From Ktedonosporobacter rubrisoli (GTDB taxonomy: Bacteria; Chloroflexota; Ktedonobacteria; Ktedonobacterales; Ktedonobacteraceae): a DNA stretch of 64,000 nucleotides. Under the pieces are notes generated by a model. That model was given only the letters and a program-made list of their open reading frames with translations. It made no database searches and was not told the DNA's origin. Positions within the stretch are counted from its first letter, which is position 1. Every line of letters begins with the position of its first letter. Positions 54,125 to 58,366 of the stretch are shown in pieces. The stretch is from contig NZ_CP035758.1 in NCBI RefSeq assembly GCF_004208415.1, forward strand, positions 6,324,001 to 6,388,000, in the 5' to 3' direction. A program made the translations under genes and the position numbers.

Positions 54125-54534
54125 AGTGGCTTATCCTCAATGGGCAAACTATTGTGTCTCATAGGTAGAGCGAATAACTTTGCTCTCTACACGAAACACT
54201 GGCCTATCTGGACGCGCCCCAAAGCTCAAACGTTAAGTTTGGATGAGAATCAAGGCTTGCCGGCGATGATATGGTAAACATGCAAGTGCTTTGCAGCGCC
54301 ATTCGCCGTTGTGCCATCCTGATCTTCCTCCGCAAATTGGATAAAACCAACTTGCCGCCGCGTGATTGAAATCGTCAAGAGTTCTGCTTGCAGTTCCCTC
54401 CTGCTTGACTCTCCCCTTACTGGAGGGGCTAAGATTGTGGCATCCCGCAAAGGATGCACCCTTTTTGGAGTGTCTTCAGCACTCACGACACGCGAGAAAA
54501 AGCCAGCAGATATATGAGACAGGAGAGGCAAGTT
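54125..54534. other. intergenic region
   Basis: About 410 bases. A minus-strand frame of 93 codons (54250-54531, TTG start) has no ribosome site or known motif, and I do not count it as a gene. No RNA element was recognised. Confidence 0.4.
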
Positions 54535-55188
54535 ATGGACGAGTTCATATTAACTTTAGCCCAAAGCACAGGCCAGAAGGTCGACTTTAAGAAACAGTTG
54601 AGACATCTTTACAATCCTTCGGCGAACGAAGTGATGGTGGTAGATATCCCTGCCATCAAGTTTCTTATGGTTGATGGAATGGGCAACCCCAATACCGCGC
54701 AAGCATATCAGGAGGCGGTCGAAGCATTGTACGCGACGGCCTATGCCCTGAAATTCCTGTTCAAGAAGGAGCAAGAGTTCGATTACGTGGTCATGCCTCT
54801 GGAGGGGTTATGGTGGGTCCCCGATATGCGAGAGTTCAGCATTGAGCACAAAGAGGTCTGGCAGTGGACGATGATGATCGCGCAGCCACAAGAGGTAACT
54901 GAGGCTTTGTTTGAGCAAGTGCGCGCGCAGGTGCAGCGCAAGAAGCCATCCCCGGCCCTGGCGAAGCTGCGCCTGGAACAGTTCCGCGAGGGTGTTGCCG
55001 CCCAGATCATGCATCATGGCCCGTTTGCGACGGAGGGTCCGACCATAGCCCGCCTGCATGCCTTCTTACAAGAACAGGGGTATACTCCTGGCGGGAAACA
55101 CCATGAGATCTATCTCAGCGATCCGCGCCGAGCCGCCCCGGAGAAAATGCGCACGGTGATTCGGCAACCGATGGTCCCCATCGTGTGA
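54535..55188 (+). CDS. GyrI-like small-molecule-binding domain protein
   Basis: A 217-residue stand-alone GyrI-like (SRPBCC-adjacent, AraC effector-type) protein. IPAIKFLMVDGMGNPNTAQAYQEAVEALYATAYALKF opens the domain, and VVMPLEGLWW, MHHGPFATEGPTIARLHAFLQEQGY and GKHHEIYLSDPRRAAPEKMRTVIRQPM close it. The HEIYLSDPRR...E..RT.IR signature is typical. Such single-domain proteins bind or hydrolyse small cyclic compounds in some cases. ATG 54535 has GAGAGGC upstream. No partner gene is seen. Confidence 0.85.
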   Translation: MDEFILTLAQSTGQKVDFKKQLRHLYNPSANEVMVVDIPAIKFLMVDGMGNPNTAQAYQEAVEALYATAYALKFLFKKEQEFDYVVMPLEGLWWVPDMREFSIEHKEVWQWTMMIAQPQEVTEALFEQVRAQVQRKKPSPALAKLRLEQFREGVAAQIMHHGPFATEGPTIARLHAFLQEQGYTPGGKHHEIYLSDPRRAAPEKMRTVIRQPMVPIV

Positions 55189-55332: not shown

Positions 55333-56163
55333 TCATTGCTCCTTACTGACGACAAAGACCAGCTCGCTGGCAAACTCGTAGCGCCGCCAGCTCCAGGGCT
55401 CGGCGGCCAACAATTCCCGAAAGTGCCGCTCATAGTTGCTGAGCATACCCTTGCTATGGCCGCCCAGGCTGTGCAAGGGAAAAGAGACGACAAGATGCCT
55501 GGCCCTTACCGCGCGTAAAAGCTGATAGCCTGCCTGCTTATCCACCTGTTCCAGGCAGGGAATAATCTTGAGCAGAAAGGCCACATCTACCTCCTGCTGC
55601 GGCGTGGATTGCAAGATATCCCCGGCCCAGGCCTGGCCCGGCACGCCCATAAGCTGCATAGCATCGTGCAGAAAAGCCATCATCCGCACATAGATATCGC
55701 AGGCATAATAGCGCGCTCCCGGCGCCAGCGGTAGCCAGGGAATGGCCAGCGGATTGAGACCACAGGCCAGATCGAGCACGCTATGGACGGGGGCCAGTTC
55801 GGCCAGCAGGGTCGTATAGAATGTATCAAGGATGGGCAGACGCTCGCGCGTCGAGGTATGGTTGCTCATAATCTGCTGGCAGGCCTGACGCAGCTCCTCA
55901 ACCTTGCCAGTCTCGGCCGCCTGCGCCAGAGCACTCAGCCAGCCCGTATAGGGCTCGTGGCCGCCAGTAACCAGGTATGCCCCGGCAACCTGGTGCAGCT
56001 TGTTGCGCGTGGACTTGACCGCCTCCTTAAACTTGCGGCGCTTGTAGAGCTCCTGTGCGCCAATCCGTCTGATCAGGTCGGCGCAGACATCGCGATATTT
56101 AACGCTCGCCTGCACATCCTGCACCAGCCTGTCGAGCTCAGTTCCTTCATCAGCCACGCGCAT
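55333..56163 (-). CDS. 16S rRNA m7G1405 methyltransferase (ArmA/Rmt family)
   Basis: A 276-residue protein that matches the aminoglycoside-resistance rRNA methyltransferases throughout: VKYRDVCADLIRRI, AVKSTRNKLHQVAGAYL, HTSTRERLP (102-110), SVLDLACGLNPLAIPWLPLAP (SAM site), DVAFLLKIIPCLEQVDKQAG and LVVSFPLHSLGGHSKGM. Enzymes of this family methylate N7 of G1405 in helix 44 of 16S rRNA and give high-level resistance to 4,6-disubstituted deoxystreptamines such as gentamicin and kanamycin. It overlaps the upstream Tgt-like gene by 14 bases, so translation is coupled. In this chromosomal context it may protect against soil actinomycete antibiotics or modify its own ribosomes. Confidence 0.9.
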   Translation of the reverse strand: MRVADEGTELDRLVQDVQASVKYRDVCADLIRRIGAQELYKRRKFKEAVKSTRNKLHQVAGAYLVTGGHEPYTGWLSALAQAAETGKVEELRQACQQIMSNHTSTRERLPILDTFYTTLLAELAPVHSVLDLACGLNPLAIPWLPLAPGARYYACDIYVRMMAFLHDAMQLMGVPGQAWAGDILQSTPQQEVDVAFLLKIIPCLEQVDKQAGYQLLRAVRARHLVVSFPLHSLGGHSKGMLSNYERHFRELLAAEPWSWRRYEFASELVFVVSKEQ

Positions 56164-57301
56164 AATAGCCTTCGCGCAAGCGCTGCGTGAGCATAGTCAT
56201 AAAGCGCAAATTATGAATAGTGGCAAGGCGGAAAAAGAGGCTATCATTGACCTTGAAAAGATGGCGCAGATAAGCGCGCGTATAGCGTGTACAGCTCAGG
56301 CAATCGCAAAGGTTAGAGATCGGCGCGCTATCCTTAATATACTTGTCATCGTTGATATAGACATAGCTGAACCATTTGCCCTTGCCCTCGATCTCGCTGG
56401 CCTGGCGATTAAAAACGTAGAGCCGAGCATGGCGCGCGTCTCGCGTGGGCATGGCGCTATCGAACATGCCATAGCCCAGCCGCGTACACTCAACAACGTT
56501 GTCGGGGTGCCCGACGCCAAGGGCGTGCATGGGAAATTGTGCGGGGATCAGCTCACGCGTATAGCCGATAATATCCGTGAGCAGCTTGCCTTGCGCATCA
56601 AGAGGCCAGCCACCATAGCCATAGCCATCAAAGCCGATCTCCAATAAAGCCTCGGCACAGCGTTTGCGCAGCTCGTGGGAGCCGCCGCCCTGGATCACAC
56701 CAAAGAGGTGCGGACGCTTCTCAGGCGCCAGGCGCTTCTGTTCAACCAGGCGCACAAACTCGCTCTTGCAGCGCTTGGCCCAGGCAATCGTGCGCAAGAC
56801 TGCCTCCTCCTGCGTCGCAAAGGGCGCGTCAACGTGCGTGCAGTAGTCAAGGCACATCACCACATCAGTATCATAGCTCATTTGCAGCTGCACGGCCTTC
56901 TCGGGCGTGAGATGGAATTTGCGCTCGGCGCCTTCTGGCTTAAAACTAATACCATCGGCATCTAGCGAGCCAAAGCGGGCATTCTGCTGAATCAGCGAGT
57001 AGGCCTGAAAGCCGCCCGAATCCGTCACGATTGGATGTGGCCAGGAGCTCATAGTGTGCAGGCCGCCCAGAGCTTGAACCGTTGAGGAGCCGGGATGCTG
57101 CATGAGATGGAACGTATTCATTACCACGGCCTGTACGGCGTGCCGCTCAAGGTCGCTACTATCGATTGAGCGCACCACCCCTAGAGTAGCATCGGGCATA
57201 TAGACTGGCAACTGCAACTGCCCATGTGGGAGTTGCAAGCTACCATACTGCTGTTGCGTTGCTGTAGCTTCGTGCGGCGTTTTAGAGAGAGCCTGGTCCA
57301 T
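56150..57301 (-). CDS. divergent tRNA-guanine transglycosylase family protein
   Basis: A 383-residue TIM-barrel protein of the Tgt family, which exchanges a guanine in RNA for a 7-deazaguanine. The general base D94 (VTDSGGFQ), D152 (base recognition), the nucleophile D281 (MFDSAMPTRDAR) and the zinc ligands C332, C334, C337 and H363 are all kept. The base-pocket loop, LAVGE in bacterial Tgt, reads GWPLD here (231-235), so the base it accepts may differ from preQ1. The gene overlaps the rRNA methyltransferase downstream. No queC/D/E/F genes lie in the window. A canonical Tgt may exist elsewhere; the possibilities include queuine salvage or a new substrate RNA. Confidence 0.85.
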   Translation of the reverse strand: MDQALSKTPHEATATQQQYGSLQLPHGQLQLPVYMPDATLGVVRSIDSSDLERHAVQAVVMNTFHLMQHPGSSTVQALGGLHTMSSWPHPIVTDSGGFQAYSLIQQNARFGSLDADGISFKPEGAERKFHLTPEKAVQLQMSYDTDVVMCLDYCTHVDAPFATQEEAVLRTIAWAKRCKSEFVRLVEQKRLAPEKRPHLFGVIQGGGSHELRKRCAEALLEIGFDGYGYGGWPLDAQGKLLTDIIGYTRELIPAQFPMHALGVGHPDNVVECTRLGYGMFDSAMPTRDARHARLYVFNRQASEIEGKGKWFSYVYINDDKYIKDSAPISNLCDCLSCTRYTRAYLRHLFKVNDSLFFRLATIHNLRFMTMLTQRLREGYYARG

Positions 57302-57712
57302 AGATCATCCTTCGCCGGTTCGCCACCGGTTTTCCCCTTATTTAGAACATATATATCCGCGTCGCGCTCGCCCGCACCCGGATGCATGGTCGAGTAATCT
57401 TCGCAGCCTTGGACATTCTGCCTGGCTTTGCCACTCGGCAAGATCGGAGCTCGGGCGCATTTTGCCATTATACATCAGATCGCAGATTGTGCCTATTTCC
57501 TCCTTACGGCAGCCGGACTTTCCCCTTCTCCTCGCGCCGTCAGCGACGGACAAGCAGAGCTGGCAAGCCCTATCACTGCCACGAACAAACATTTTGTCAA
57601 GGTCTATTACTATGTTATAATCTCAAAAATATCTAACTTCTCAACAAGAGATATTTGCCATCTTTCGTTTTTCAGCTTCATAAGCTCTATTATTCCAAAT
57701 CGGAGTATTTAC
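57302..57712 (+). promoter_or_regulatory. divergent region with the TMEM175-like gene promoter
   Basis: About 410 bases between the Tgt-like gene and the channel gene. TTGTCA (57594-57599) and TATAAT (57616-57621), 16 bases apart, form a strong plus-strand promoter with a predicted start near 57628. No gene is seen in the stretch; the long frame that runs into the channel gene is not likely to be used before ATG 57713. Confidence 0.65.
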
Positions 57713-58366
57713 ATGCAAGTAGAAAAATCTTCTGTGACGAGTCCCGAGAAGCCACACGACTCCTCTAAAGAGCGTCTCATCATGCTTAGCGATGGCGTCT
57801 TTGCCATTGCCATCACCCTGCTGGTTATCGACATTCACCTGCCTGAAAAGCTTAGTGCCGGCGCAGTGCAAGATGCTTTTATCAAGCTTTTCCCCCAGTT
57901 CCTCGGCTATGTCATTAGCTTTGTCATTATCGCCACTTACTGGGTAATCCACCGGCGTCTCATGGACCGCGTAAAGATCGCTGATCGCAATATTACATTC
58001 CTTAACCTGACTTTGCTCTTTTTTATCGCCCTGCTGCCCGTCTCGACCAAATTTATCGGGCCTTATTATGGCATCCCCATTATCACAGCTTTCTATGCGC
58101 TCAATCTGGCGGCCTGTGGCTTTGTCTCCGTAGCCACCTCGCTCTATCTCAAGCAACGCCGAGAGATTGCCGTAGACGATCTGAATATAGCCGACGTTGA
58201 TCGCGGCCTGCGCAGCGCGCTGCTGGCCTCAGTGGTCTTTGTGCTCTCGCTGCTGCTTATGCTGCTGCCCAACGGCGCGCGGTGGGTGCTTCCCTCCTGG
58301 TGTATATTATTCTTTACGGACCCTATTGCTCGCCTGGTTCAGCGTTTGCAGTCACGCAAGGCCTGA
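57713..58366 (+). CDS. TMEM175 (DUF1211) family membrane protein
   Basis: A 217-residue six-helix membrane protein. ERLIMLSDGVFAIAITLLVIDIHLP is the signature of helix 1 in bacterial TMEM175 proteins (R-xxx-FSD; here LSD). Bacterial members are potassium-permeable channels with weak selectivity. GGAG lies eight bases before ATG 57713. The other helices contain YWVIHRRLMDRV and LALPVSTKF-like segments. Alone in its transcription unit; a role in membrane potential or osmotic balance is possible. Confidence 0.85.
   Translation: MQVEKSSVTSPEKPHDSSKERLIMLSDGVFAIAITLLVIDIHLPEKLSAGAVQDAFIKLFPQFLGYVISFVIIATYWVIHRRLMDRVKIADRNITFLNLTLLFFIALLPVSTKFIGPYYGIPIITAFYALNLAACGFVSVATSLYLKQRREIAVDDLNIADVDRGLRSALLASVVFVLSLLLMLLPNGARWVLPSWCILFFTDPIARLVQRLQSRKA

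Follow-up and report, generated by a model that had tools for sequence, protein, structure and literature searches.

Why does a gene for a Tgt-like transglycosylase overlap a gene for a 16S rRNA methyltransferase in the genome of a soil bacterium? The question is raised by a stretch of 64,000 nucleotides (the window) of Ktedonosporobacter rubrisoli, a member of the Chloroflexota (assembly GCF_004208415.1, NZ_CP035758.1, positions 6,324,001-6,388,000). The first-pass annotation had described two genes for RNA-modifying enzymes overlapping by 14 bases, and both open reading frames were confirmed on the minus strand of the window. The Tgt-family gene, herein designated TGT-R, is a paralog distinct from the housekeeping Tgt encoded elsewhere in the same genome. 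The second gene, Rmt, is predicted to encode a methyltransferase of the FmrO/Rmt type. As described below, TGT-R was never found in our survey without Rmt, and we tentatively read the pair as a module acting on the ribosomal decoding centre.

55333-56163, minus strand: Rmt, FmrO/Rmt-type 16S rRNA (G1405-N7) methyltransferase by family, 276 amino acids (PF07091, 191 bits)
56150-57301, minus strand: TGT-R, Tgt-family paralog, 383 amino acids (PF01702, 315 bits; TIGR00430, 323 bits)
56150-56163, minus strand: 14-base overlap of the TGT-R 3' end with the Rmt 5' end, read from the sequence (TGA stop codon of TGT-R at 56150-56152; ATG of Rmt at 56161-56163)

Conservation of the TGT-R and Rmt pair

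Of 400 Chloroflexota genomes, 77 were found to encode an FmrO-family methyltransferase and 70 to encode TGT-R. Every one of the genomes with TGT-R also carries Rmt, and TGT-R was detected in none of the 323 genomes lacking Rmt (Fisher p ~1e-70, uncorrected for phylogeny). Of the seven remaining FmrO genomes, three contain fragments or pieces of TGT-R (G003, G094 and G310), two have the FmrO gene at a contig edge (G142 and G287), and two apparently lack TGT-R (G202 and G381). In the class to which the window belongs, FmrO was found in 29 of 47 genomes, and precisely these carry an additional TGT of the same type as in the window, which in some of them is a fragment at a contig end; the FmrO-less genomes of this class contain one canonical TGT each, except for one poor genome in which none was found. 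Presence and absence of the two genes switch jointly inside three genera (g5, g9 and g13) and two families (f3 and f4), so the agreement does not stem from repeated counting of a single clade. Dictyobacter aurantiacus, Thermosporothrix hazakensis and Thermogemmatispora tikiterensis are among the cultured strains with the pair. TGT-R depends on Rmt, but Rmt does not depend on TGT-R.

The pairing extends beyond the Chloroflexota. When one genome per species was scanned, 407 relatives of Rmt were obtained; for the best 80 of these, TGT-R was located on the same piece of sequence in 67 and elsewhere in the genome in six, two of the six being fragments. The pair was found in Chloroflexota, Armatimonadota, a Poribacteria bin, a cyanobacterial bin, one Bathyarchaeota chromosome and enterobacterial plasmids, of which the single finds in rare lineages (Poribacteria, cyanobacterial and Bathyarchaeota) could reflect mis-binned contigs. 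A wide distribution of TGT-R in archaea was ruled out, since among 398 genomes of the Bathyarchaeota phylum a single one was found to contain it. The conservation in relatives, raised as a check in the first-pass annotation, thus holds across the Chloroflexota and beyond, and gives strong support to a genuine module of the two RNA-modifying enzymes.

Where the two genes are aligned in the same order as in the window (104 loci, some genomes contributing more than one), their spacing falls between -30 and +60 nucleotides in 79 and they overlap in 71. The spacing, overlap and co-occurrence counts together rule out chance adjacency. It is quite improbable, in our judgement, that the two are just translation genes inherited or regulated together, neither depending on the other in function, even though genes for SmpB (L079) and an MtaB-like methylthiotransferase (L081), both assigned by eye, lie near some copies and the Rmt gene of plasmids usually travels alone. 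Such simple linkage is at odds with the absence of TGT-R from every genome without Rmt, with the joint gain and loss inside genera, and with the reversed gene order at four loci (L120-L122 and L126). Moreover, both genes are present but unlinked in five genomes, on different contigs in G130, G174, G221 and G249 and about 320 kb apart in G371; since unlinked copies still co-occur, a functional tie is indicated rather than simple co-transfer. In 99.5% of pairs, TGT-R is the more conserved of the two proteins; their distance matrices are correlated (r = 0.77), a correlation that co-inheritance alone would also give. In four related loci (L099:3208-4338, L103, L109 and L115), an open reading frame judged by eye to be ATPase-like is inserted between TGT-R and Rmt.

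TGT-R as a separate branch of the transglycosylase family

In the 11.34-Mb genome of K. rubrisoli, the canonical Tgt is encoded at 8.294 Mb and scores 500 bits, against 315 bits for TGT-R; coexistence of the two was also observed in the other TGT-R genomes. TGT-R belongs to the TGT superfamily (PF01702 cut-off, 26.3 bits) and narrowly passes the threshold of the canonical Tgt equivalog TIGR00430 (323.1 bits against 306.75), whereas its matches to the DpdA and archaeal TgtA profiles are weak or partial (22 and 84 bits against cut-offs of 200 and 350). Its AlphaFold2 model is confident (mean predicted local distance difference test score, pLDDT, of 89.6), and the best match of this model in the PDB by Foldseek is the TIM-barrel fold of Zymomonas mobilis TGT (E 3.6e-35, TM-score 0.83). 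In a quick, unrooted tree with eight canonical rows and long branches, TGT-R and canonical Tgt stand on opposite sides of a fully supported branch. Phage homologues were also considered and rejected, the best showing 36% identity and being canonical-like.

Residues were compared in an alignment of 87 TGT-R proteins with 8 canonical TGTs. The catalytic Asp89 and Asp264 and the base-recognition residues Asp143 and Gln187 (E. coli numbering) are retained in all 87. Positions in the window are as follows.

57020-57022, minus strand: Asp94 codon, counterpart of catalytic E. coli Asp89 (87/87)
56459-56461, minus strand: Asp281 codon, counterpart of the nucleophile E. coli Asp264 (87/87)
56213-56308, minus strand: zinc-site residues Cys332, Cys334, Cys337 and His363 (Cys332, Cys337 and His363, 87/87; Cys334 position, 80/87)
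56597-56614, minus strand: codons of the base-pocket motif GGWPLD, residues 230-235, replacing GGL[AS]VG in the alignment

The second zinc Cys is replaced by Gly or Ala in 7 of the 87 proteins, two of which (L004 and L031) have an adjacent Cys instead, in the motif CDGLCC.

TGT-R thus shares the fold, the catalytic Asp pair, the recognition Asp and Gln and the zinc site with bacterial Tgt (E. coli b0406 and the Z. mobilis structures), but differs in the pocket that accepts the base. The canonical GGL[AS]V is changed to GGWP[LIM], with L215W, A/S216P and V217L replacements and loss of the switch residue Glu219; Trp is found in 86 and Pro in all 87 TGT-R proteins, against Leu and Ser/Ala in 8 of 8 canonical ones. 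In Z. mobilis TGT, switching between guanine and preQ1 is done by a loop of Leu231-Ala232-Val233 with Glu235 (PMC3660597), and the pocket of queuine-type TGT reads GG[LS][AS]G (PMC11570991). The TGT-R pocket matches neither the preQ1-type GGLAVG nor the queuine type. The surface predicted to contact RNA is also altered: the 98-104 loop, which in E. coli TGT stacks on tRNA A37, is elongated and lacks its Arg (R102G in 87/87), an insert of about 15 residues follows position 282, K285 is replaced by Tyr in 87/87, and most proteins have Ile or Val at the K292 position. The covalent intermediate of E. coli TGT is lost when either Lys is changed to Asp (K285D or K292D; PMC13416341). As judged from these residues, TGT-R looks catalytically competent, with an altered base choice and RNA surface. 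The pocket, the tree and the presence of the canonical gene in the genome together ruled out a canonical Tgt moved into a new operon, and TGT-R is linked to Rmt, not to queuosine genes.

The invariant Pro allows one further reading, that TGT-R exchanges the m7G1405 base itself, a good leaving group, for guanine or a 7-deazaguanine. With Pro, the backbone NH is lost that reaches guanine N7 through a water in Z. mobilis TGT (PMC3660597); its absence fits a base without an N7 acceptor, and this substrate would agree with the one-way dependence of TGT-R on Rmt. However, the argument is purely structural and has no precedent, and Pro fits an incoming base of the preQ1 type too. We consider such an exchange very improbable.

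Identity of the methyltransferase

The PF07091 (FmrO) match of Rmt spans residues 20-271 at 191 bits. Against NF000466, the NCBIfam equivalog for Rmt and by far its best match, the score is 236.6 bits, slightly below the cut-off of 250; the window protein is to be called an FmrO relative, not a named Rmt. The nearest solved structure is Sgm (3lcu, E 1.9e-49). From its family, Rmt would methylate N7 of G1405 in 16S rRNA. It shares PF07091 and the full length of Sgm and RmtB with the acquired Rmt/Arm and producer Sgm/FmrO methyltransferases, but differs from them in its position under the Rmt cut-off and in being chromosomal and in no recognised antibiotic cluster. Unlike the self-resistance genes Sgm/Grm of producers, it does not lie among recognised aminoglycoside biosynthesis genes (last 16 kb of the window inspected). 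It is the sole FmrO protein in its genome. At many Anaerolineae loci (L100:5792-6610; also L053, L072, L081, L086, L106 and L114), Rmt forms a tandem with a further FmrO paralog downstream of it (136 bits with PF07091 for the paralog in L100), after which comes an RsmF-like gene.

Neighbouring genes for decoding-centre modification

RsmI and RsmH modify C1402 of 16S rRNA, RsmF modifies C1407 and RsmE U1498, all around G1405 and helix 44 (h44). In 44 loci, about half of those examined, the operon or its flank holds genes for one or more of these enzymes: RsmI in 31, an RsmF-like protein in 22, RsmE in 8 and RsmH in 2. The four enzymes resemble the pair in acting around h44, or being expected to, but none of them is a transglycosylase, and they are not adjacent to the pair in the window genome, where the sole RsmI is encoded about 80 kb away; the RsmI linkage is seen in its relatives. 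The rsmI gene beside the pair is the only copy in 15 of the 17 genomes checked. This argues for housekeeping modification of the decoding centre rather than a dedicated resistance cassette, and rules out the operonic RsmI as a duplicate adapted to ribosomes with N7-methylated G1405 (m7G1405). In these lineages, m7G1405 and the product of TGT-R seem to be a part of normal ribosome maturation. An unusual h44 in the window genome was also ruled out, its sequence being standard.

Links to the supply of 7-deazaguanine exist but are sparse. A QueT-family transporter gene lies directly upstream of TGT-R on the Bathyarchaeota chromosome (L111:3294-3872), in a genome that gave no QueA match, and QueA is encoded upstream of TGT-R at two loci (L052 and L071). 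QueT was rejected as a general partner because it was found in L111 only. A further QueA paralog, divergent and scoring about 255 bits (for example G000:C1:4689279-4690316, L181), was rejected as a partner because most Ktedonobacteria have it, whether or not they carry TGT-R.

TGT-R on clinical plasmids

High-level resistance to most clinical aminoglycosides is conferred by G1405 methylases. The top plasmid matches of TGT-R adjoin the acquired resistance genes rmtB2, rmtD1, rmtE2 and rmtG, the copy beside rmtE2 being truncated. On the rmtB2 plasmid, from Providencia, one gene is inserted between TGT-R and rmtB2, and its product fits a YaeI/LpxG-like metallophosphoesterase profile (L034:7149-7958).

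It had been supposed that no standard operon joins the two enzymes. This needs correction in part: a gene upstream of rmtG in strain Kp13 has been described as a "putative tRNA ribosyltransferase" (PMC3904158), and a review lists rsmH, tgt and "rsmL" in the rmtG operon (PMC9311965), although in the open literature we found no description of the TGT-R subfamily or of the pairing as a general one. The gene fragment that follows rmtG in pKP13f gave a match to RsmI. This Klebsiella pneumoniae operon (rsmH-tgt-rmtG-rsmI fragment) agrees with the window in the pair, its order, the short overlap and the TGT clade, but is carried on a plasmid mobile element together with RsmH and the RsmI fragment, and its TGT is 44% identical to that of the window.

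Is the pair then a resistance cassette, in which the modification by TGT-R itself lowers aminoglycoside binding? That TGT-R accompanies acquired rmt genes of four families on clinical plasmids would agree with such a role. A 4,6-disubstituted aminoglycoside is contacted by G1494 at its central ring and by N7/O6 of G1405 at its third ring (PMC8195987), and given these contacts an N7 change at G1494 could matter. We nevertheless regard the cassette as improbable. TGT-R was found in 15 plasmid records, against 1,595 with a G1405-methylase match; it is missing from nearly all of the latter and is therefore dispensable for plasmid-borne resistance. The truncation beside rmtE2, the lack of a recognised drug gene cluster at the window locus and the usually single rsmI beside the pair point the same way. 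Of the "ribosome protection" proposed in the first-pass annotation, the paired RNA-modifying module stands, while protection is unproven for the Tgt-like member on these same grounds.

Proposed target of TGT-R

We propose, at a probability that we place just short of even, that TGT-R and Rmt constitute a conserved module modifying the ribosomal decoding centre. On ribosomes carrying m7G1405 through the predicted activity of Rmt, TGT-R, with its Tgt fold and remodelled base pocket and RNA-binding surface, would actively exchange guanine for a 7-deazaguanine in decoding-centre RNA. The likeliest target would be a guanine of the 16S decoding region, followed by the wobble guanine of tRNA, and the effect may be on fidelity and/or drug binding. 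The 16S target is slightly and modestly favoured over tRNA G34 because the dependence is one-way, the company of the pair consists of 16S enzymes, and canonical Tgt, which already covers queuosine at G34, coexists in the same genomes. G1494 is a candidate, offered as a suggestion and not as a result, because it is followed by U, as is tRNA G34 (UGU motif), and contacts the central aminoglycoside ring.

Several observations weigh against this proposal. To our knowledge, all described TGT-fold enzymes act on tRNA or DNA, not on rRNA. The equivalents of E. coli R270 and R273 are kept in TGT-R, and K285 is not conserved among canonical TGTs either. Many operon partners are general translation genes. 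Finally, Rmt works without TGT-R, as TGT-R is missing from most rmt/armA plasmids and from some chromosomal Rmt loci.

The main alternative is action on tRNA, in which TGT-R would insert a different or differently controlled 7-deazaguanine at the wobble G34 of GUN tRNAs and thereby tune decoding on m7G1405 ribosomes. We regard this as a plausible but less than probable explanation. The TGT family provides the precedent, and the active site is conserved along with the two Arg residues. G1405 methylases render E. coli translation error-prone (PMC12406665), Vibrio cholerae needs tgt, que genes, rsmI, rsmF and rsmH for fitness in low tobramycin (PMC10117853), and queuosine at position 34 changes decoding under tobramycin (PMC11703503). 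QueA adjoins TGT-R at two loci. On the other side stand the canonical Tgt of the same genomes, the altered stem- and loop-contact positions of TGT-R, its pocket of neither the preQ1 nor the queuine type, and the second QueA, which does not track TGT-R.

Returning to the rRNA reading, its boldest form is that TGT-R is an rRNA transglycosylase inserting 7-deazaguanine at a guanine of the 16S decoding centre beside m7G1405, and that such modules were the source of the mobilised clinical rmt genes. Taken as a whole, this may be the case, but we would sooner doubt than expect it. We found no description of this class of rRNA modification.

Putative expression signals and flanking genes in the window

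The arrangement of start and stop codons fits translational coupling of TGT-R and Rmt, as far as can be read from the DNA. Putative signals are listed below.

56169-56173, minus strand: GAAGG, Shine-Dalgarno-like stretch of Rmt, within the TGT-R gene and 5 nucleotides before the Rmt ATG
57308-57313, minus strand: GAAGGA, Shine-Dalgarno-like stretch of TGT-R
57467-57495, minus strand: promoter-like site TAGGCA-17-TATAAT upstream of TGT-R (consensus scan only)

The same consensus scan detected no minus-strand promoter-like site between TGT-R and Rmt. The pair is flanked by genes for a TMEM175-type channel (57428-58366) and a GyrI-like protein (54454-55188) on the opposite strand, with no sign of membership in the module. 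In the last 16 kb of the window, the neighbours are the GyrI-like, DUF2000 and TMEM175 genes and a hydrolase-like open reading frame, and no aminoglycoside or antibiotic biosynthesis genes were recognised near the pair.

Implications

The pairing of TGT-R with Rmt suggests an undescribed modification of the decoding machinery, and would lead one to expect that either rRNA contains a new modified base or tRNA is changed in a ribosome-specific way. The pairing further explains the presence of tgt genes, hitherto unaccounted for, next to several distinct rmt genes on plasmids. Since TGT-R was never found without Rmt in the survey, it provides a handle on the native role of G1405 methylases outside antibiotic producers, and bears on whether m7G1405 is a normal modification of the decoding centre in Chloroflexota.
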